DNA of 64,000 nt, taken from contig NC_009379.1 in assembly GCF_000016345.1 (NCBI RefSeq), positions 620,001 through 684,000 on the forward strand, read 5' to 3'. Source of the DNA: Polynucleobacter asymbioticus QLW-P1DMWA-1. GTDB taxonomy: Bacteria; Pseudomonadota; Gammaproteobacteria; Burkholderiales; Burkholderiaceae. Of this stretch, positions 3,928 to 52,926 are shown piece after piece. Each line of letters opens with the position of its first letter. Position 1 is the first letter of the stretch. A program made the position numbers and the translations under genes. A model generated the notes under the pieces. It did not search any database, was not told the origin of the DNA, and saw only the letters and a list, made by a program, of their open reading frames with translations.

Positions 3928-6048
3928 TCAGAAGTTGTATTTTCCGGTGATATAAAACGCTCTGCCATCGCTTGGGTAATAGTAGTAATTATTGCTAAAC
4001 GTTCCATTCGCTGCCATGACATTGGTGTATCCCCCGTAACTCGCATACGAGGCATTCCCTACGTTTTTAATCGTGAACTTTGCATCAAAATTTCCAGTCT
4101 TGTAATTTATATACACATCACCAGCTGTATAGGATGGCATGAGCGCAAGTGAACTGTAATAAATTTGGCTTGCATCATAGTGTTGGCTACTAACGTAATT
4201 CACTACGCCGCCAACAGACCAATTTTCATCTATTGAATAACTTGCTCTGGCGTTTAGTAGTAAGTTGGGGGCTACGGGAATAGCATTTCCAGCGTAGGGA
4301 CCATCAGCATAGTAAGAATGCTGAAATTTACCGCCACCTGCAAGGCTCAGTCGATTAGTAATGTTGGATGATGTATCCATCGCTACACCGCGGCGATTAA
4401 CGTTGTACTGCGAGTTGTAATTTAAGCCTGAAGAAGGGTCATACATGATTTCATTTTGAGAGCTAGATGAAAAAATAGATCCATTCACTCTGACGCTGCT
4501 CCACATCCAGTTACCGCCGACCTCATACGTTTGTGCTATTTGCGGTCTAAGGATCCCGTTAAACACACGGTTATAAGTGTTGGGATCAAATCCCCAGAAT
4601 TCATCAATATTGGGAAAGCGATAAGACTGATTCCACTTCACATAGACTTTTTGCTTGCCTGCGTAATTAAAATTTAAGGCAACATCCCCTGCATTAGCTG
4701 AATAGGTTTGATCAGCAGTGACGGCACCATTCGGTGAGTAAATGTTTGAGTCATAAGTGCTGGCTTGTTGCATTTGATGGCGCGCTCCACCATCAAGACT
4801 GAGTTCTTTCGTAATCGGTAATTTAAGAATTGCATAAAACGATTGATTCAGAACGGATGCATGTTGAGAGTTATAAGGCAGTCCATTGGGATTGGAAATG
4901 TAATAGTCTTGCGTCAAAATGTTGGTGGCGGCAGAACCAAAAGCATTTGTTCCGCCTTGGCCAGCCTTGTTTAATTCATATCCCACAATCCCCGTGCCCA
5001 ATGGCCCTAAGTCTGCCTTTAAGCGAGGAGTTAAGTTCAATTGCCAGCCGGATAGGTTGCTATTACTTGCTCCCACAATAGGGTAGGGCGTTACATTGAG
5101 AGCGGCATCACTATCGTAAAAGGGGTTGTAATAAAAGACTGTTCTATTGGTATAGGAAGCATCTAACTCTCCGATGTAACCATCCCCTAGCCCTTTGGTT
5201 CCGCCAAATCGAACCCCCGCATTGTTGGTTGTGGTGTTTGAGCCAATATTATTGAACTTGGCAGATTGAGGATTTCCTTCCCCAACTTGCCCAACAACAC
5301 CGCCTGGGTTTTGCGCATTCGTGTAACCATAAAAGAAGTCGGTATAGATTTTGTCTATCCCGCCAAATTTTTGGGTGATCTTCGCATCAAAGGCATAAGC
5401 ATTTGCTGCGGAATTTTGCCTCCAACCTTGCGTATTGGAGGTATTGGCCGTTAATTGATATGTAGTGTCTTCAAAGCTATCGCGCAATATTGCATTGTTC
5501 ACTAGGGTTCCATAGCTGCCGTAACTAACGCTAGCTTGATTCAACTTCGAAGTATTTCCATTGGTAATAATGTTAATAACGCCACCAACGGCGCCGTTTC
5601 CGTATTGAACGCTCGCTCCGCCTTGTAATACCTCGATGCGATCAATGGAGTCGATGGGAATTGACTCCCAGCTAATACTTGTTGAATCAATGGAATTAAT
5701 TCTTTGGCCATCAACTAAAATTAATGTGGTGCTATTTGCACCCACACCATAACCACCCATGTCGACAGTTGCATCAAGATTGAGTTGTCCTGGATTAGTG
5801 CTTCGCACATTGAGGCCGCCGATTTGAGATAAAACATCTGGAATATTGCTCGATGTTGAATTGGCAATCTCATCTCGAGTAATTACCTGAACATTCGCCG
5901 GAACTTCATTGAGGTTTTCTTCAAATCGTGAGCCTGTCACGATGACAGTAGATTGAGAGCTTTGTGCAAATGCAGATGTGTATAAGCCAAATGCAAATAG
6001 GGCGCCGCAAAATAGGGCGATAGGCCTTCGCTTGAACTGCTGCTTCAT
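3928..6048 (-). CDS. TonB-dependent outer-membrane receptor, B12-riboswitch controlled (BtuB-like)
   Basis: A 706-residue TonB-dependent transporter. Residues 1-28 form a signal peptide ending AFA. A short VIVTGSR segment near residue 36 precedes the plug domain, which contains the VLVDGQRINS-type and IEVLQGGASVQYGNGAVGGVINI motifs; the remainder is a beta-barrel rich in aromatic and asparagine residues ending in a terminal phenylalanine (GKYNF). The cobalamin riboswitch in its leader indicates that it imports cobalamin or a related corrinoid, as BtuB does. It is the only gene in this unit: no btuCDF lies next to it. An AGGAAG Shine-Dalgarno precedes the ATG. Confidence 0.88.
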   Translation of the reverse strand: MKQQFKRRPIALFCGALFAFGLYTSAFAQSSQSTVIVTGSRFEENLNEVPANVQVITRDEIANSTSSNIPDVLSQIGGLNVRSTNPGQLNLDATVDMGGYGVGANSTTLILVDGQRINSIDSTSISWESIPIDSIDRIEVLQGGASVQYGNGAVGGVINIITNGNTSKLNQASVSYGSYGTLVNNAILRDSFEDTTYQLTANTSNTQGWRQNSAANAYAFDAKITQKFGGIDKIYTDFFYGYTNAQNPGGVVGQVGEGNPQSAKFNNIGSNTTTNNAGVRFGGTKGLGDGYIGELDASYTNRTVFYYNPFYDSDAALNVTPYPIVGASNSNLSGWQLNLTPRLKADLGPLGTGIVGYELNKAGQGGTNAFGSAATNILTQDYYISNPNGLPYNSQHASVLNQSFYAILKLPITKELSLDGGARHQMQQASTYDSNIYSPNGAVTADQTYSANAGDVALNFNYAGKQKVYVKWNQSYRFPNIDEFWGFDPNTYNRVFNGILRPQIAQTYEVGGNWMWSSVRVNGSIFSSSSQNEIMYDPSSGLNYNSQYNVNRRGVAMDTSSNITNRLSLAGGGKFQHSYYADGPYAGNAIPVAPNLLLNARASYSIDENWSVGGVVNYVSSQHYDASQIYYSSLALMPSYTAGDVYINYKTGNFDAKFTIKNVGNASYASYGGYTNVMAANGTFSNNYYYYPSDGRAFYITGKYNF

Positions 6049-6096: not shown

Positions 6097-6202
6097 GTCG
6101 AACAGAATTTCACGTGCAAGAGATCAGGCGTCAATTTGGCGTCGCATCAAGAGATAGGGCGCTGTCATCGGCGCGCGAAGGTCCCCGTCCGCAAAATTCC
6201 AC

Positions 6203-6395
6203 CTGTCTTGGCCGGTATCCGGGCTAGTAAATCTCAGAATCTGGCCTTCCCATGCAATTGACGCGCACAGTGGCTATTTCAGACTCCTGACCCTTTTCAT
6301 GTCTGAAAGAGGGCATTTACTTACCGTTGCGGGGGCAGCACACGTTTTGTGTTTCCCGTTTAACTCTGTTGCATTGCAACAAAGCACCACGACCC
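6203..6395 (-). promoter_or_regulatory. Cobalamin (AdoCbl) riboswitch
   Basis: The minus strand shows the conserved cobalamin aptamer elements in order: AAACGGGAAAC, GCTGCCCCCGCAACGGTAAG (B12 box core), GTCAGGAGTC, GCCACTG, GGGAAGGC, and GCCCGGATACCGGCCA. These sit between the likely promoter near 6400-6460 and the TonB receptor gene. In the family, adenosylcobalamin binding represses expression, so the receptor should be made when B12 is scarce. Confidence 0.95.
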
Positions 6396-6488
6396 CTGGA
6401 TTTTAGCTCATAACAGAGGCTGTTTAGGGTTTTAGCCCCTCTTTTGGGGCGAAAAAGCCTACAATAGAGGGTCTAGGATGAAGGATTC

Positions 6489-7106
6489 ATGACAGCATTA
6501 GACAAGCACCTCGAAAAAAACCTGATTCGTCTTCAACTGAGCCAAAACTCAGTGCTTAAAAGCTTAGATTCGGCAGCAATGGCCGATTTAGAGCGCCATT
6601 TAGAAATTTCGGACCTCAAAAAATCAGAAATACTGCTTCATCAAGGTGATCACCAGATGGAGCAGTATTTTGTCCTTGATGGAATTCTCAAGCGTATCGT
6701 TTCCAGTGCCGATGCTAAGGAAATGATCCTGCGTTTTGCCATCGAAAAAGATATTGAAACCAGTTATGCCGCATGGCGCCTGAAGACGGCGGCCCCATAC
6801 AGCATAGCCTGTGTGACTAAGGCTCGTGTCGCCCGTATGCCCATGAAGAAGTGGGCTGAATTCCTGGAGGAGCACAAGCCTCTCAAGGAAAGCTTTGAGT
6901 TTGAAGTCATGCGTTTGATGAGCGAAATCATGGCGCACACCATCACATTGCATATGTTGGATGCCCCGGGCCGGGTAGAGCGTTTCTTGCGTAAATATGA
7001 GGATCTATTTGAGCTGCTTCCTAAAAAAGAGCTGGCCGCGTATCTCAATCTTTCCCCTGAGACCCTGAGCCGCCTCAAAACTAAGCATAAAGAGCTCTTT
7101 ATTTAG
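6489..7106 (+). CDS. CRP/FNR-family transcriptional regulator, candidate regulator of oxalate genes
   Basis: A 205-residue regulator of the CRP/FNR superfamily. The N-terminal half is a cyclic-nucleotide-binding-type beta-roll (LKKSEILLHQGD near residue 45, YFVLDGILKRI near 60-70), followed by a dimer helix and a winged helix-turn-helix at about 178-198. The recognition helix reads PETLSRL, so E191, S194 and R195 match the E-x-x-S-R of FNR that reads TTGA half-sites. Unlike FNR there is no N-terminal cysteine cluster; the only cysteine is C108, so an Fe-S oxygen sensor is unlikely and the effector is unknown. It is divergent from the B12 receptor and ends about 200 bases before oxc. A TACAAT -10-like box lies at 6460-6465. 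Confidence 0.88.
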   Translation: MTALDKHLEKNLIRLQLSQNSVLKSLDSAAMADLERHLEISDLKKSEILLHQGDHQMEQYFVLDGILKRIVSSADAKEMILRFAIEKDIETSYAAWRLKTAAPYSIACVTKARVARMPMKKWAEFLEEHKPLKESFEFEVMRLMSEIMAHTITLHMLDAPGRVERFLRKYEDLFELLPKKELAAYLNLSPETLSRLKTKHKELFI

Positions 7107-7143: not shown

Positions 7144-7157
7144 TTGACCGAAGTCAA
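7144..7157 (+). promoter_or_regulatory. FNR/CRP-type operator upstream of oxc
   Basis: A perfect 14-bp palindrome, TTGAC-CGAA-GTCAA, the general shape of FNR-family sites (TTGAY-N4-RTCAA). Its centre (7150.5) is 29.5 bases from the first base of the TAATAT box at 7180, which equals a class II position of -41.5 relative to a start near 7192. Confidence 0.75.
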
Positions 7158-7179: not shown

Positions 7180-7185
7180 TAATAT
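7180..7185 (+). promoter_or_regulatory. Predicted -10 box of the oxc promoter
   Basis: TAATAT matches five of six bases of the sigma70 -10 consensus. It lacks a good -35 and instead has the palindrome at 7144-7157 in the activator position. It predicts a transcript with a leader of about 119 bases before the oxc ATG. Confidence 0.6.
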
Positions 7186-7310: not shown

Positions 7311-9020
7311 ATGACAACAGATAACCAAAACACACAACTAACAGACGGCTTTCACCTTGTTATTGACGCCCTCAAAGCAAATGATCTCGATACCATTTTC
7401 GGTCTCGTTGGTATTCCTATTACTGACTTATGCCGTTTAGCGCAAGCTGAAGGTTTACGTTTTATTGGTTTCCGTCACGAACAGCACGCAGGTAATGCTG
7501 CAGCGATTGCTGGCTACATGACACAAAAGCCTGGCATTTGCATGACTGTTTCTGCACCAGGCTTCTTGAATGGTTTAACAGCGCTGGCTAACGCCACTGT
7601 CAATTGCTTCCCAATGATTTTGATTTCAGGTTCAAGCGAGCGTGAAATCGTTGACTTGCAGCAAGGTGACTACGAAGAGATGGATCAGCTCAATGCAGCT
7701 AAGCCATATTGCAAAGCGGCTTATCGTATCAATCACATTGAAGATATTGGTATTGGTTTTGCTCGTGCGATTCGCGCTGCAGTTTCTGGTCGTCCAGGCG
7801 GTGTTTATTTAGACTTGCCAGCTCAGTTACTCGCTCAAACAATGCCTGTTGAAGAAGCTAAGAAGTCTATTTTCAAAGTAATTGATCCAGTTCCACGTCA
7901 AATTCCAGCGGCTGATGCAGTTGCTCGTGCGTTGGATGTACTGAAGGGCGCTAAGCGTCCATTAATTCTCTTGGGCAAAGGCGCTGCTTATGCTCAGGCT
8001 GATAAAGAGATTCGTGACTTGATCGAAAAATCAGGTATCCCTTATTTGCCAATGTCGATGGCAAAAGGATTGTTGCCAGATAATCATCCGCAGTCTGCTT
8101 CTGCAGCGCGTTCATTCGTATTGGCTGAAGCTGATTCAGTGTTGTTGATTGGCGCACGTTTGAATTGGTTGCTTTCACACGGTAAAGGCAAGACTTGGGG
8201 TAAAGATCCGAAGAAATTTATTCAAATTGATATTCAAGCAAATGAAGTGGATAGCAACGTACAAATCGCTGCCCCATTGATTGGTGATATCGGTTCATGC
8301 GTCGGTGAACTCTTGAAAGGTATCTCTGCGGTGCCTAAGCCGAGTGCTGAGTGGATTGCTGCAATCACTGAGAAGAAAGACAAGAACACTGCGAAGATGG
8401 CAGAGACATTGGCTAAAGAAGCAAACCCAATGAACTTCCATGGCGCCTTACGTGTAATTCGTGATGTGATCAAGAAGAACCCAGACGTGAACTTAGTCAA
8501 TGAAGGGGCAAATACTCTGGACTATTGCCGTGCAATTGTTGACATGTACAAGCCACGCAAACGCTTTGACTCCGGCACATGGGGCATTATGGGTATTGGT
8601 ATGGGCTACGCCATTGGCGCCGCAGTTACCAGTGGTCTGCCTACAGTTGCAGTAGAGGGCGATAGCGCATTTGGCTTTAGCGGTATGGAATTAGAAACAG
8701 TTTGCCGTTACAACCTGCCAATTACTACCGTTGTATTTAATAACAACGGTGTGTACCGTGGTACTGACGTAAATCCAACGGGTGGTGCAGATGTTGCGCC
8801 GACTGTATTCGTTAAAGATGCCCGTTACGACAAGATGATTGAGGCATTTGGTGGCGTGGGTTACTACGTTACTACTCCAGCAGAATTAGAAGCAGCGTTA
8901 ACAGAAGCGATTGCTGCCGGTAAACCAGCCCTCATCAATGCTGTTATTGATGAAACTGCAGGTACTGAGAGTGGACGTTTAACGAACTTAAACCCATCCA
9001 CAGCAGCTGCTAAGAAATAA
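7311..9020 (+). CDS. oxc: Oxalyl-CoA decarboxylase
   Basis: A 569-residue thiamine-diphosphate enzyme that converts oxalyl-CoA to formyl-CoA and CO2, the energy-yielding step of oxalate breakdown. The N-terminal pyrimidine-binding domain carries the catalytic-type glutamate in FRHEQHAGN (E57, equivalent to the known Glu56 of Oxalobacter Oxc). The central domain follows, and the C-terminal ThDP/Mg motif begins [14 protein letters not shown] at residue 450 with the NN end ([11 protein letters not shown]). Length and the [11 protein letters not shown] segment agree with Oxc rather than acetolactate synthase. It is followed 72 bases later by frc, probably in one operon, under the FNR-type operator described above. 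Confidence 0.97.
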
Positions 9021-9092: not shown

Positions 9093-10343
9093 ATGACTAA
9101 ACCATTAGACGGTATTCGCATTATTGACTTCACACACGTACAAGCAGGTCCTGCATGTACTCAGTTGTTAGCATGGTATGGCGCTGACGTAATTAAAGTA
9201 GAGCGTCCAGGTTCTGGTGACGTAACACGTAGCCAATTGCGCGATATCCCAGGCGCAGATGCTTTGTACTTCACCATGCTCAATGGTAATAAGCGTTCAT
9301 TAACTCTCGATACTAAGACTCAAGAAGGTAAAGAAGTTTTAGAAAAGATGATCAAGACTTCTGACGTGATGGTTGAGAACTTTGGTCCAGGCGCTTTGGA
9401 TCGCATGGGATTCTCTTGGAAACGTATCCAAGAATTGAACCCAAAAATGATTATGGCTTCTGTTAAAGGCTTTAGCGATGGCCACTCATACGAAGACTTA
9501 AAAGTGTATGAGAACGTTGCTCAGTGTGCTGGTGGTGCTGCTTCTACTACTGGTTTCTGGGATGGTCCTCCTACAGTTTCTGCTGCAGCATTAGGTGACT
9601 CTAATACTGGTATGCACTTGGCAATTGGTATTTTGACTGCATTGATGCAGCGTCAAAAAACTGGTAAAGGTCAAAAAGTATCTTGCTCAATGCAAGATGC
9701 GGTATTGAACTTGTGCCGCGTGAAGTTGCGCGATCAACAACGTTTGGACAAGATTGGTTACTTGGAAGAGTACCCACAATACCCACACGGTTCATTCACT
9801 GACGTAGTTCCACGCGGCGGTAACGCCGGTGGTGGCGGTCAGCCAGGATGGGTATTGAAGTGTAAGGGCTGGGAAACAGATCCAAACGCATATATCTACT
9901 TCACTATTCAAGGTCACGCTTGGGAGCCAATCACCCGTGCGATTGGTAAGCCAGAGTGGGCAACTGATCCAGCGTATATGACTGCTGAAGCACGTCAAGA
10001 CAAGATTTTTGACATCTTCGCAACAATCGAAGACTGGCTCAAAGACAAGACTAAGTACGAAGCTGTAGACATTCTCCGCAAGTTCGATATTCCATGTGCT
10101 CCAGTTCTCTCTATGAAAGAATTGGCTGCTTCACCTGACTTGCGTAAGAGCGGTTCAATCGTTGAAGTGGATCACAAAGTACGTGGCAAGTATTTGACTA
10201 TCGGCAGCCCAATCAAGTTCTCTGATTTGGAAATCGAAGTTGGTCCATCACCAGTTTTGGGTGAGCACACAGATGAAGTGTTGACTGACCTTGGCTACAG
10301 CTCTGACGATATTGCTAAGTTGCACGCTGCTAAAGCAGTTTAA
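9093..10343 (+). CDS. frc: Formyl-CoA:oxalate CoA-transferase
   Basis: A 416-residue class III (CaiB/BaiF) CoA-transferase that moves CoA from formyl-CoA to oxalate, closing the cycle with Oxc. The catalytic aspartate is D169 (LGDSNTGMH), the same number as in Oxalobacter Frc. The flexible glycine loop that closes over the active site is intact as GGGGQ at residues 246-250. The nearby [15 protein letters not shown] segment matches what I recall of E. coli YfdW. A good Shine-Dalgarno (AAGGAG) precedes the ATG. The gene ends before a strong terminator, so oxc-frc is a two-gene unit. Confidence 0.96.
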
Positions 10344-11000: not shown

Positions 11001-12248
11001 ATGGCAAAAGCACTAGAAGGGGTAAAAATCCTCGACTTTACGCACGTTCAATCAGGTCCAACCTGTACGCAATTATTGGCTTGGTTCGGTGCGGATGTAA
11101 TCAAGGTGGAAAAATCGGGTGAAGGCGATGCTACCCGTGGTCAGTTAAGGGATATGCCTGATGCCGATAGTTTGTATTTCACAATGCTCAATCACAACAA
11201 GCGTTCTATTACCGTGAATACCAAAACCCAAAAGGGTAAAGAAATTCTTGAGCGCCTCATTAAAGAGTGTGATGTATTGGTAGAAAATTTTGCGCCAGGT
11301 GCACTTGATCGCATGGGATTCTCATGGGAGCGTATTCAAGAACTCAACCCTATGATGATCTTGGCTTCTGTAAAAGGTTTTGGTCCTGGCCCATACGAAG
11401 ATTGCAAGGTGTATGAGAACGTGGCGCAATGTGCAGGTGGTTCTGCCTCAACGACTGGTTTTGATGATGGCCCTCCAATGGTTACTGGAGCGCAAATTGG
11501 TGACAGCGGCACAGGATTGCATTTAGCTTTAGGAATTGTTACTGCACTGTATCAACGCACCCATTCTGGTCGCGGTCAAAAAGTATTGGCAGCAATGCAA
11601 GATGCCGTATTGAACTTATGCCGTGTGAAATTGCGCGATCAACAGCGTCTTGAGCGTGTTGGTCTCATGCAGGAGTATCCACAATTCCCGAACGGTGAGT
11701 TCGGTGACTCTGTACCCCGCGCCGGCAATGCTTCTGGCGGTGGTCAGCCTGGCTGGATTGTCAAATGCAAAGGTTGGGAAACCGATCCAAATGCATATAT
11801 GTATGTGATTGTTCAGGCTCCAGTATGGGAAGCCATTTGTAAAGTGATCGGTCGTGAAGACTGGATTACTGATGTGCGCTTCGCATCACCAATGGCTCGC
11901 TTGCCACACTTAATGGAGATCTTTGGTGAGATCGAAAAGTGGACAATGACAATGACCAAATTTGAAGTAATGGATGTATTAAATCAATACGACATTCCAT
12001 GCGGCCCGATCTTGTCTATGAAAGAAATTGCCGAAGAGCCTGCATTGCGTGCTACTGGTACTGTGGTTGAAGTAGATCACCCAATCCGTGGTAAATATCT
12101 CACTGTCGGTAACCCGATCAAGTTATCGGATAGCCCTACTGATGTAGAGCGCTCTCCATTATTGGGTGAGCATACGGACGAGATTCTCTCTGAGTTAGGT
12201 TACTCAACAGATGAGTTAATTACTCTTCGTCACGATAAGGTGATCTAA
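11001..12248 (+). CDS. Second CaiB/BaiF CoA-transferase, Frc paralogue
   Basis: A 415-residue class III CoA-transferase clearly paralogous to the frc gene 0.7 kb upstream along its whole length. The catalytic aspartate is kept (D168, in [11 protein letters not shown]). The active-site glycine loop differs: it reads SGGGQ (245-249), with serine in place of the first glycine. Frc-like function with formyl-CoA and oxalate is likely, but a different acyl donor or acceptor is possible. The stop codon is one base from the start of the formyl-transferase-like gene, so the two are co-translated. That pairing distinguishes it from the oxc-linked copy. Confidence 0.9.
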
Positions 12249-51160: not shown

Positions 51161-51280
51161 ATTAGCGCAGGCAGTACAAGCCCCAAACGCCCAAACTCAT
51201 TTTTTAATCGTTCAAAACCAATGGTTTTTTGTTGATTCTTTTTCATAATACGAAATTGATTATTGCTATGCAATAACATT

Positions 51281-51306
51281 AGGGTTAAACTCTAGGTACT
51301 AACCCT
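51281..51306 (+). promoter_or_regulatory. Inverted repeat in the leader of the 35-residue ORF
   Basis: AGGGTTA (51281-51287) and TAACCCT (51300-51306) are perfect inverted arms 12 bases apart. The second arm touches the Shine-Dalgarno AAGGAG of the ORF at 51320, so it may be an operator or a translation-controlling hairpin. Confidence 0.45.
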
Positions 51307-51319
51307 TAAGGAGATTCAA

Positions 51320-51427
51320 ATGACTGTTCTATTGAATATGTTCAACCAGCTTTTTTCTGAAAGCAAACCAGCTGCTCAGCAGCAATCCCGTCACTATGAT
51401 TTTGATGGCGCATATCGCGGTATGTAA
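51320..51427 (+). CDS. 35-residue small protein of unknown function
   Basis: ATG at 51320, eight bases after a strong AAGGAG Shine-Dalgarno, encodes 35 residues beginning MTVLLNMFNQLFSESKP and ending RHYDFDGAYRGM. A perfect terminator follows 21 bases after the stop, so it forms a complete transcription unit. The N-terminal third is amphipathic and hydrophobic, the middle rich in glutamine, and the end Asp/Tyr/Gly-rich. I do not recognise a family. It is too short for ordinary gene finders, and an alternative is a leader or regulatory peptide. Confidence 0.7.
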   Translation: MTVLLNMFNQLFSESKPAAQQQSRHYDFDGAYRGM

Positions 51428-51448
51428 TTCAAAAAAGTAGTTATCTAG

Positions 51449-51479
51449 AAAAGCCACCTTCTTTTTAGGTGGCTTTTTT
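51449..51479 (+). terminator. Terminator after the small ORF
   Basis: AAAAGCCACC / GGTGGCTTTT arms with a nine-base loop, followed by a T-run. Confidence 0.92.
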
Positions 51480-51562
51480 ATTCATCATGACTGATAAAAA
51501 GGAGTGTGAATAACTTGCAATTCAATCTCTTGGCTTAGGGGTAATCACTAGTGCGCAAATGA

Positions 51563-51590
51563 AATTATCTTGATGATCATCAAGATAATT
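51563..51590 (+). promoter_or_regulatory. 28-bp perfect palindrome with an FNR-consensus core upstream of the OxlT-like gene
   Basis: The 28 bases from 51563 to 51590 are a perfect palindrome, starting AATTATC and ending GATAATT. The core at 51570-51583 is TTGAT-GATC-ATCAA, an exact FNR consensus site. Its centre (51576.5) is 29.5 bases before a GAGAAT -10-like box at 51606-51611, the class II activator spacing, predicting a start near 51618. Confidence 0.75.
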
Positions 51591-51672
51591 AAAGGGTTGA
51601 TGTCTGAGAATTACTGAGCCCCTAAAGAAGGTGCGTAATCTAAAAAAAGAAATAATCAGGAGAGCATAAATC

Positions 51673-52926
51673 GTGAGTAAGCCATGGCATAACCGTTGGG
51701 CGCAGTTAGTATTCGGAATTATTTGCATGGGATTGGTTGCCAATCTTCAATATGCATGGACTTTGTTTGTTAACCCCATTCAGATTAAAACTGGCTGGGC
51801 TTTATCTGCAATCCAACTCTCTTTCTCAATCTTTATCGTAGTAGAAACTTGGCTGGTTCCAGTTGAAGGTTGGATGGTTGATAAATTTGGACCTCGCATT
51901 GTTATTCTGATCGGCTCTGTATTTGCTGCAGCTGGTTGGGTGATGGATAGTTATGCAACTTCACTCGAAATGCTTTATGCAGCAGCTGTTGTTGCTGGTA
52001 TTGGTGCTGGTTGCGTTTACGGCACTTGCGTTGGTAATGCGCTGAAATGGTTTCCGGATAAGCGTGGTCTCGCTGCTGGTTTAACTGCAGCAGGCTTTGG
52101 AGCTGGTGCAGCGATTACGGTAATTCCAATTGGCAATATGATTCTGGCAGATGGCTATGAGCATGCCTTTCTATTCTTTGGTCTTGCACAAGGCGCACTG
52201 ATTTTCTTGTTGGCTTTATTGATGACAAAACCAACGCCTCCTAAGGGCGTGCAGGCAGCTCCTCGTATCGTTACCACTAAGGTGGACTATACCTCTGGTC
52301 AAATGATTAAAAAACCTTTATTTTGGCTAATCTATGTCATTTTTGTTGTTGTAGCCGCTGGGGGTTTGATGGTGACGGCGCAAATTGGACCGATTGCTAA
52401 GGATTGGGGTCTTGCGAAATTGCCGATGATCTTATTTGGCACTACCTTGCCGCTGCTCACAATGACTTTATCAATTGATAACCTATGCAATGGTTTCACT
52501 CGCCCACTATGTGGATTTATTTCAGATCGCTTTGGTCGTGAAAACACTATGTTCTTCGTCTTCTTTGGCGAGGGCTTATCGATGCTAGGGTTGATGCATT
52601 TTGGACATGATCCATATGCATTTATGACTTTTGCTGCATTGATCTTCTTGTTTTGGGGTGAAATTTTCTCGATCTTCCCAGCGATCTGTGCGGATACATT
52701 TGGTGTAAAAAATGCAGCTGGTAATGCCGGTACTTTATACACAGCAAAAGGAACCGCTTCTCTATTGGTGCCTTTGGCATCTGTTCTTTCATCAACTGGT
52801 GATTGGAATACGGTTTTTGTAGCGGGTGCAATTGTTACAATTACCGCGGCGTTTGCAGCTAAGTTCATTTTGGCGCCAGCTCGCAAGCGCTTTATTGAAG
52901 AAGCCAACAAGAATGCCGGTCATTAA
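51673..52926 (+). CDS. Oxalate/formate antiporter-family MFS transporter (OxlT-like)
   Basis: A 417-residue, 12-helix major facilitator of the OFA family. The N-terminal half closely follows Oxalobacter OxlT as I recall it: NRWAQLVFGIICMGLV, YAWTLFVNPI, VDKFGPRI, and WFPDKRGLAAGLTAAGFGAGAA. OxlT swaps oxalate in for formate out. The start is a GTG at 51673 with an AGGAGA Shine-Dalgarno nine bases upstream. Although 42 kb from oxc-frc, its promoter has an FNR-type site like theirs, so it probably supplies oxalate to that pathway; other OFA members carry other anions, so this is inferred. Confidence 0.88.
   Translation: MSKPWHNRWAQLVFGIICMGLVANLQYAWTLFVNPIQIKTGWALSAIQLSFSIFIVVETWLVPVEGWMVDKFGPRIVILIGSVFAAAGWVMDSYATSLEMLYAAAVVAGIGAGCVYGTCVGNALKWFPDKRGLAAGLTAAGFGAGAAITVIPIGNMILADGYEHAFLFFGLAQGALIFLLALLMTKPTPPKGVQAAPRIVTTKVDYTSGQMIKKPLFWLIYVIFVVVAAGGLMVTAQIGPIAKDWGLAKLPMILFGTTLPLLTMTLSIDNLCNGFTRPLCGFISDRFGRENTMFFVFFGEGLSMLGLMHFGHDPYAFMTFAALIFLFWGEIFSIFPAICADTFGVKNAAGNAGTLYTAKGTASLLVPLASVLSSTGDWNTVFVAGAIVTITAAFAAKFILAPARKRFIEEANKNAGH

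Follow-up and report, generated by a model that had tools for sequence, protein, structure and literature searches.

Class II promoters of Escherichia coli FNR carry TTGAT-N4-ATCAA at -41.5. The site described here, upstream of a predicted oxalate/formate antiporter gene of Polynucleobacter asymbioticus QLW-P1DMWA-1, shares with these promoters the core motif, the symmetry, and the 29.5 bases from centre to -10, but it persists in two genomes without an FNR match, and the regulator linked to oxc (oxalyl-CoA decarboxylase) has one cysteine. This regulator resembles members of the Crp/Fnr superfamily (CRP, GlxR, DNR, FNR) in its cNMP-binding domain and in E-x-x-S-R within a C-terminal helix, while differing from them in having no match to the Pfam Crp-type helix-turn-helix and in having oxalate genes as neighbours. 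The closest solved relative of the antiporter is OxlT of Oxalobacter formigenes (8hpj, 8hpk; best PDB match 8hpj, 240.7 bits), and the arginine of the RP-x-x-GF stretch and the lysine of the AK-x-TAS stretch of OxlT, which have a role in oxalate binding, align with the antiporter. In contrast to OxlT, the antiporter gene here is unlinked to oxc, and its transport activity is a prediction. An antiporter, oxalyl-CoA decarboxylase, and formyl-CoA transferases are reported to rise together in Burkholderia terrae BS001 (PMC5209427), and Collimonas pratensis is likewise described as upregulating antiporter, oxc, and frc (formyl-CoA transferase) jointly. B. terrae BS001 has one oxalate gene cluster, whereas here two loci lie about 44 kb apart. 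The sections of these two accounts that were examined name no Crp/Fnr regulator, and the excerpts of the wider literature examined describe no Crp/Fnr regulator of oxc or frc.

The window, by which we mean the whole 64-kb stretch analysed, corresponds to positions 620001-684000 of a single-contig genome of 2,159,490 bases. Features at the antiporter promoter, in window coordinates, are as follows:

51539-51552, forward strand: GGGTAATCACTAGT, a second conserved element separated from the downstream operator by 17 bp
51563-51590, no strand: perfect 28-bp palindrome AATTATCTTGATGATCATCAAGATAATT, in which 14 + 14 bases pair without mismatch
51570-51583, no strand: TTGATGATCATCAA, core of a predicted class II operator with its centre at -41.5 (motif search and conservation)
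51606-51611, forward strand: GAGAAT, a -10-like hexamer whose first base is 29.5 from the centre of the operator (51576.5)
51618, forward strand: predicted transcription start, placed from spacing only
51673-52926, forward strand: oxalate/formate antiporter (OFA-type MFS), GTG start, TIGR04259 604.6 bits (cut-off 335)

The palindrome is the longest in the window (the runner-up has 20 bp), and palindromes with 14-base arms are expected by chance 0.00026 times per window and 0.009 times per genome. Its core is the sole 0-mismatch occurrence of TTGATNNNNATCAA (TTGAT-N4-ATCAA) within the window. An earlier note on this DNA had described a perfect 28-bp palindrome, an exact FNR consensus, a -10-like hexamer 29.5 bases from the palindrome centre, and an oxalate/formate antiporter gene downstream, and all four descriptions proved accurate for the source strain. 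GAGAAT agrees with TATAAT at four of six positions and, taken alone, is a weak -10. Oxalate-for-formate exchange by the encoded protein is predicted from its TIGR04259 score. That the palindrome could be a chance or structural feature without regulatory role, such as a cruciform or terminator stem, is suggested by the variation of its outer arms between relatives; this is hardly credible in view of the chance expectation per window, the presence of the core at 25/25 same-genus antiporter genes, and the lack of any Rfam match at 51200-51800. A structured RNA at the promoter was dropped as a candidate on the same Rfam result. We conclude that the palindrome is a real, conserved control site before an oxalate/formate transporter gene. 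Between the upstream DUF1854 gene and this promoter we also noted, by eye, a 35-codon ORF (MTVLLNMFNQLF...; 51320-51427, forward strand) followed by a terminator-like hairpin.

The second locus, near the start of the window, comprises:

6489-7106, forward strand: Crp/Fnr-type regulator, proposed operator binder (PF00027, E-T-L-S-R motif, one cysteine, structural model)
7144-7157, no strand: oxc operator TTGACCGAAGTCAA, a site found in 48/50 oxc loci
7180-7185, forward strand: TAATAT, -10-like hexamer of the oxc promoter, at 29.5 from the centre of its operator
7311-9020, forward strand: oxc, oxalyl-CoA decarboxylase, TIGR03254 986.7 bits (cut-off 739.4)
9093-10343, forward strand: frc, formyl-CoA transferase, first copy, TIGR03253 726.6 bits (cut-off 504.2)
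11001-12248, forward strand: frc, formyl-CoA transferase, second copy, TIGR03253 732.1 bits (cut-off 504.2)

The regulator has 205 aa and an N-terminal cNMP-binding domain matching PF00027 at 31.8 bits (cut-off 27.5); it has no Pfam helix-turn-helix match and is not among the PF13545 matches of the genome. In an AlphaFold2 model built from 40 sequences (mean pLDDT 87, pTM 0.73), helices are predicted at 179-185 and 190-199, the latter containing ETLSR, and the motif E-T-L-S-R stands where FNR carries E-T-V-S-R. GlxR, CRP, FNR, and DNR were the best Foldseek matches of this model. Among the 50 matches listed, the rmsd was 5.7-12.8 for near-full-length matches and 2.2-3.5 for those covering only about 130-150 columns, which makes the fold of the sensor half firm but not the domain arrangement. 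The single cysteine is at position 108, and no cysteine is invariant among 40 relatives; with one cysteine, the regulator lacks FNR-type cluster ligands. The cAMP contacts known from CRP are not kept in the alignment either. Collimonas proteins annotated as Crp/Fnr family regulators are among the relatives at 66-72%. Adjoining the regulator gene is a cobalamin riboswitch (RF00174, 83.4 bits, 6193-6406, reverse strand), which precedes a TonB-receptor-like ORF (3928-6048, reverse strand).

Conservation of the antiporter site was assessed among 101 same-genus genomes, 27 of which matched the antiporter at E 1e-60. In G008, G021, and G059 the match is solely to a 39% paralogue, and the remaining 24 genomes hold 25 antiporter genes, eight at 89-100% identity and 17 at 50-57%. 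TTGAY-N4-RTCAA stands within 300 bases upstream of all 25, a count that leaves out seven further same-genus antiporter genomes, G197, G205, G213, G229, G347, G357, and G376; the site is also present in G236 (L308), an additional same-genus antiporter genome. None of the four paralogue loci having upstream sequence carries the site (the fifth is cut off), and neither the site nor the second element was found within 400 bases in 26 loci of antiporters from other genera (about 72% identical), the best-scoring subset drawn from 154 matching genomes. A -10-like hexamer (at least four TATAAT matches) at 29.5 occurs in 23/25 antiporter loci and 46/48 oxc loci, and the TATAAT match peaks at 29.5 in both sets, although the oxc peak is not sharp (mean 3.94 at 29.5, 3.67 at 27.5, 3.54 at 30.5). 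The core and its spacing are conserved, and the full 28-base pairing recurs at only two of the 25 antiporter sites of relatives; the palindrome emphasised in the earlier note is thus real in the source strain but not a conserved unit, and we reject its full length as the functional unit. Antiporter and oxc lie 39-60 kb apart in 16 genomes with both genes on one contig; in G072 the distance exceeds 1 Mb.

Across the source genome, TTGAYNNNNRTCAA occurs at 38 places, 17 of which are intergenic (outside ORFs of at least 100 aa) against 8.4% of window bases (binomial P 2.7e-9, the window share being applied genome-wide). Fifteen of the 17 intergenic sites stand before other genes or none, including ccoN, an OmpW-family gene, and a cytochrome c gene. 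The earlier note had regarded many such sites before unrelated genes as counting against an oxalate regulon, and to this extent the objection has some force. Combining the 29.5 spacing with at least four TATAAT matches (34 oriented tests of the 17 intergenic sites) retained five sites, before ccoN, the OmpW-family gene, oxc, the antiporter, and a stretch without an ORF of at least 45 aa for 390 bases. The motif by itself proves little: the genome-wide scan proposed in the earlier note does recover the oxalate genes, which make up two of the five class II-spaced sites, but alongside ccoN and the OmpW-family gene, which look like ordinary FNR targets. A formate dehydrogenase branch of the regulon is at most a candidate: the site at genome position 1469941 (L123) has no class II spacing; it lies 30 bases before a 73-codon ORF and 319 bases before an Fdh-alpha-like ORF.

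Alternatively, the core FNR regulon could include the antiporter, FNR switching it in response to oxygen limitation, with the likeness to the oxc site amounting to family resemblance only. The source strain has an exact TTGAT-N4-ATCAA, encodes a genuine Fnr-type protein (genome 451159-451926; cysteines 13, 16, 22, and others; narrowly above the NCBIfam Fnr model at 229.6 vs 228), and carries equally spaced sites before ccoN and the OmpW-family gene; the spread of arm types among antiporter sites also resembles that of other intergenic sites. We nonetheless consider this reading unlikely, given that two FNR-less genomes keep the site, that antiporter and FNR show no association, and that such sites stand beside the oxc-linked regulator outside the genus.

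At E 1e-30, 19 of the 101 genomes lack an FNR match; five of the 19 are no more than 84% complete, and FNR may be missing in more than 19, as some matches are only 33%-57% identical. Seventeen of the 19 have oxc, and all 17 have the regulator. Two of them, G016 and G018, are single contigs rated 100% complete that contain the antiporter and keep both the oxc and the antiporter sites, so that an FNR protein does not accompany the site in every genome; FNR as sole reader is set back by these two genomes. A search of G016 at E 0.01, which could miss a very divergent domain, detected no PF00027 protein other than the regulator, and G018 has one further PF00027 protein, weak (below cut-off) and with E-T-I-S-R. 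Among 50 oxc loci inspected (49 genomes out of 80), the oxc site was present in 48, including all 13 FNR-less genomes of the set, and the two loci without it (G015, G025) belong to genomes without a regulator match.

Co-occurrence within the genus also favours the regulator. The regulator was found in 79 and oxc in 80 of the 101 genomes, both together in 76, and of the four oxc genomes without regulator two (G003, G055) have oxc within 400 bases of the contig start. All 24 antiporter genomes have the regulator (vs 55/77 others, P 0.0014) and 23 have oxc (P 0.022), whereas FNR is found in 22/24 vs 60/77 others (P 0.23), kinship being ignored in all three comparisons. Included in the 24 is G023, where one stop interrupts the regulator and two interrupt the antiporter, leaving both genes broken, and where no oxc match was found at E 1e-150. 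G017 retains regulator remnants and has no oxc match. Judged from these gene remains, the oxalate system has decayed jointly in G023 and G017.

Outside the genus, 44 of the 48 genomes matching the regulator at E 1e-40 in an order-level sample of 250 provide a further comparison. Among 26 regulator loci inspected there, 24 carry TTGAY-N4-RTCAA beside the regulator, and 17 of these adjoin oxc; the two loci without a site (L357, L358) have the regulator facing a gene read as fdhD. At six loci the regulator faces another thiamine-diphosphate enzyme (three were tested, none being above the NCBIfam cut-off among the best 25 rows), and at L361 a gene read as frc. Judged by arm type, the predicted consensus of the regulator is TTGAC-N4-GTCAA. 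Sites with no, one, and two C arms number 0, 1, and 47 for oxc; 0, 10, and 20 for the sites of the regulator outside the genus; 7, 17, and 1 for the antiporter; and 8, 7, and 0 for the other 15 intergenic sites of the genome (the last counted by eye). C/A and T/G arms are one hybrid read from either strand, and the seven hybrids among those 15 sites include ccoN. On these counts, the antiporter sites look more like the other intergenic sites of the genome than like oxc sites. The antiporter site of the source strain has no C arm, and the exact FNR consensus on which the earlier note relied, correct for that strain, is a minority state, with two TTGAT arms in 7/25 antiporter sites. Arm types do not discriminate between readers, and after this recount we abandoned arm type as proof for the regulator.

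The regulator and FNR might instead both act, competing for or sharing the operator, such that oxalate and oxygen together gate uptake and selection for FNR binding explains the TTGAT arms. Antiporter arms fall between those of the oxc and FNR types, and 22 of the 24 antiporter genomes have an FNR match, but loss of FNR has not moved the arms to TTGAC/GTCAA (TTGAT/ATCAA in G018, TTGAT/GTCAA in G016), and we regard the combined scheme as distinctly unlikely. In the source strain itself, FNR may bind at the antiporter operator too.

A second conserved element, GGGTAATCACTAGT, is new and was missed in the earlier note. With 0-1 mismatch it is found in 23/25 antiporter loci, 17 bp before the operator in 21 and 18 bp in two, which places it about 31 bp from the operator centre to centre, or three helical turns. 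It is unique in the genome at 0 mismatches; at two mismatches there are 14 further places, 15 in all vs 25 for the reversed control. No similar element was seen in the oxc promoters inspected, and a literature search on the element gave one record, an unrelated virus paper. The simple reading is that a second factor probably binds GGGTAATCACTAGT at about -72.5. The element is missing at L025 (second copy of G032) and L027 (G072), which also lack the usual neighbours; at L027 the operator is retained, AATAAT standing 28.5 from its centre. The main regulator of the antiporter might instead be the protein that binds GGGTAATCACTAGT, or another Crp/Fnr member, for example that at genome 791630-792343 with its E-T-I-S-R, and the nearly fixed spacing of the element in 23/25 loci would fit a role of this kind. 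The retention of the operator without the element at L027, and the lack of another PF00027 protein at E 0.01 in G016, make this very improbable.

As proposed in the earlier note, we consider it probable that the regulator encoded at 6489 reads both the antiporter and the oxc operators, forming an oxalate regulon of two loci in which uptake and breakdown would be switched together. The two promoters share operator type and spacing, and both are kept in G016 with the regulator as the only detected PF00027 protein, although the antiporter arms resemble those of other intergenic sites and such sites also persist without FNR; the arm-type recount sets our confidence no higher. Through TTGAY half-sites the regulator would bind the antiporter promoter at a class II operator near -41.5 and activate transcription of the antiporter as at oxc, activation appearing the more fitting mode than repression, while GGGTAATCACTAGT, some three helical turns further upstream, is probably occupied by a second factor. 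With one dedicated regulator for both sites, oxalate uptake (antiporter) and breakdown (oxc, frc) are probably switched together from loci about 44 kb apart. The signal might be oxalate, oxalyl-CoA, or formyl-CoA, all of them guesses. Sequence comparison demonstrates the operator and its spacing, the conservation of both, their persistence in a genome lacking FNR, and the proximity of regulator and operator across the order.

The promoter has apparently been retained while the gene behind it was exchanged. Antiporter genes usually have a DUF1854 gene upstream (17/25 loci) and a DUF2946 gene downstream (21/25), in both identity groups; neither neighbour is found at L025, L027, or the contig-end locus L029. 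In a tree of 30 proteins, a split with support 100/100 separates the 89-100% group (7 rows) plus the antiporters of other genera (8) from the 50-57% group (12) plus the paralogue (3). We therefore claim that the two groups are non-orthologous genes occupying the same chromosomal slot behind the same promoter (loci L019-L046); because only the best-scoring loci of other genera were compared, we claim non-orthology and no donor. More broadly, a Crp/Fnr regulator without FNR cysteines or a recognisable cAMP signature may govern oxalate and formyl-CoA genes of Burkholderiales via TTGAC-N4-GTCAA and, in Polynucleobacter, may have taken over an unlinked transporter at a two-input promoter (operator and GGGTAATCACTAGT) that outlived gene replacement, with one antiporter group joining those of other genera. 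Following the arm-type recount, we hold this wider proposal to be evenly balanced between right and wrong.

Where these bacteria live, oxalate is named as one of the compounds formed when humic substances in the water are photooxidised (PMC3308952), and the strain tested in that study is reported not to assimilate oxalate; the type strain of P. asymbioticus is likewise recorded as not assimilating it (PMC5018217). The system may therefore be there for energy or detoxification and not for growth. A concrete operator and regulator, with FNR-less relatives as natural controls, make oxalate sensing testable, and the second fixed element and the promoter common to non-orthologous genes add to the interest of this locus. 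The results also caution that an FNR box before a transporter need not belong to FNR alone.

The FNR-less genomes contain other sites as well, named here by eye or likeness. Six of the 25 sites in G016 are intergenic (oxc, antiporter, MotA/ExbB-like, KdgT family, phosphomannomutase-like, OsmC family), as are six of the 29 in G018 (oxc, antiporter, a toxin-antitoxin-like pair, a cytochrome c gene, the formate dehydrogenase region, OsmC family). Non-oxalate sites that persist without FNR are either further targets of the regulator or leftovers after FNR loss. Sites before KdgT-family and OsmC-family genes are present in the source genome (L011, genome 579160; L125, genome 1961777), the former recurring in G016 and the latter in G016 and G018 (L189 and L198 in G016; L225 in G018), and these genes are possible further targets of the regulator. 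In G018 (L219, 1288824), as in the source genome (L123), a TTGAY-N4-RTCAA site without class II spacing precedes a formate-dehydrogenase-alpha-like ORF by some 315-319 bases, and at 1994700-1997000 of G018 (L227) a second short Crp-like ORF (203 aa, E-T-I-S-R) adjoins an OFA-like MFS transporter ORF.
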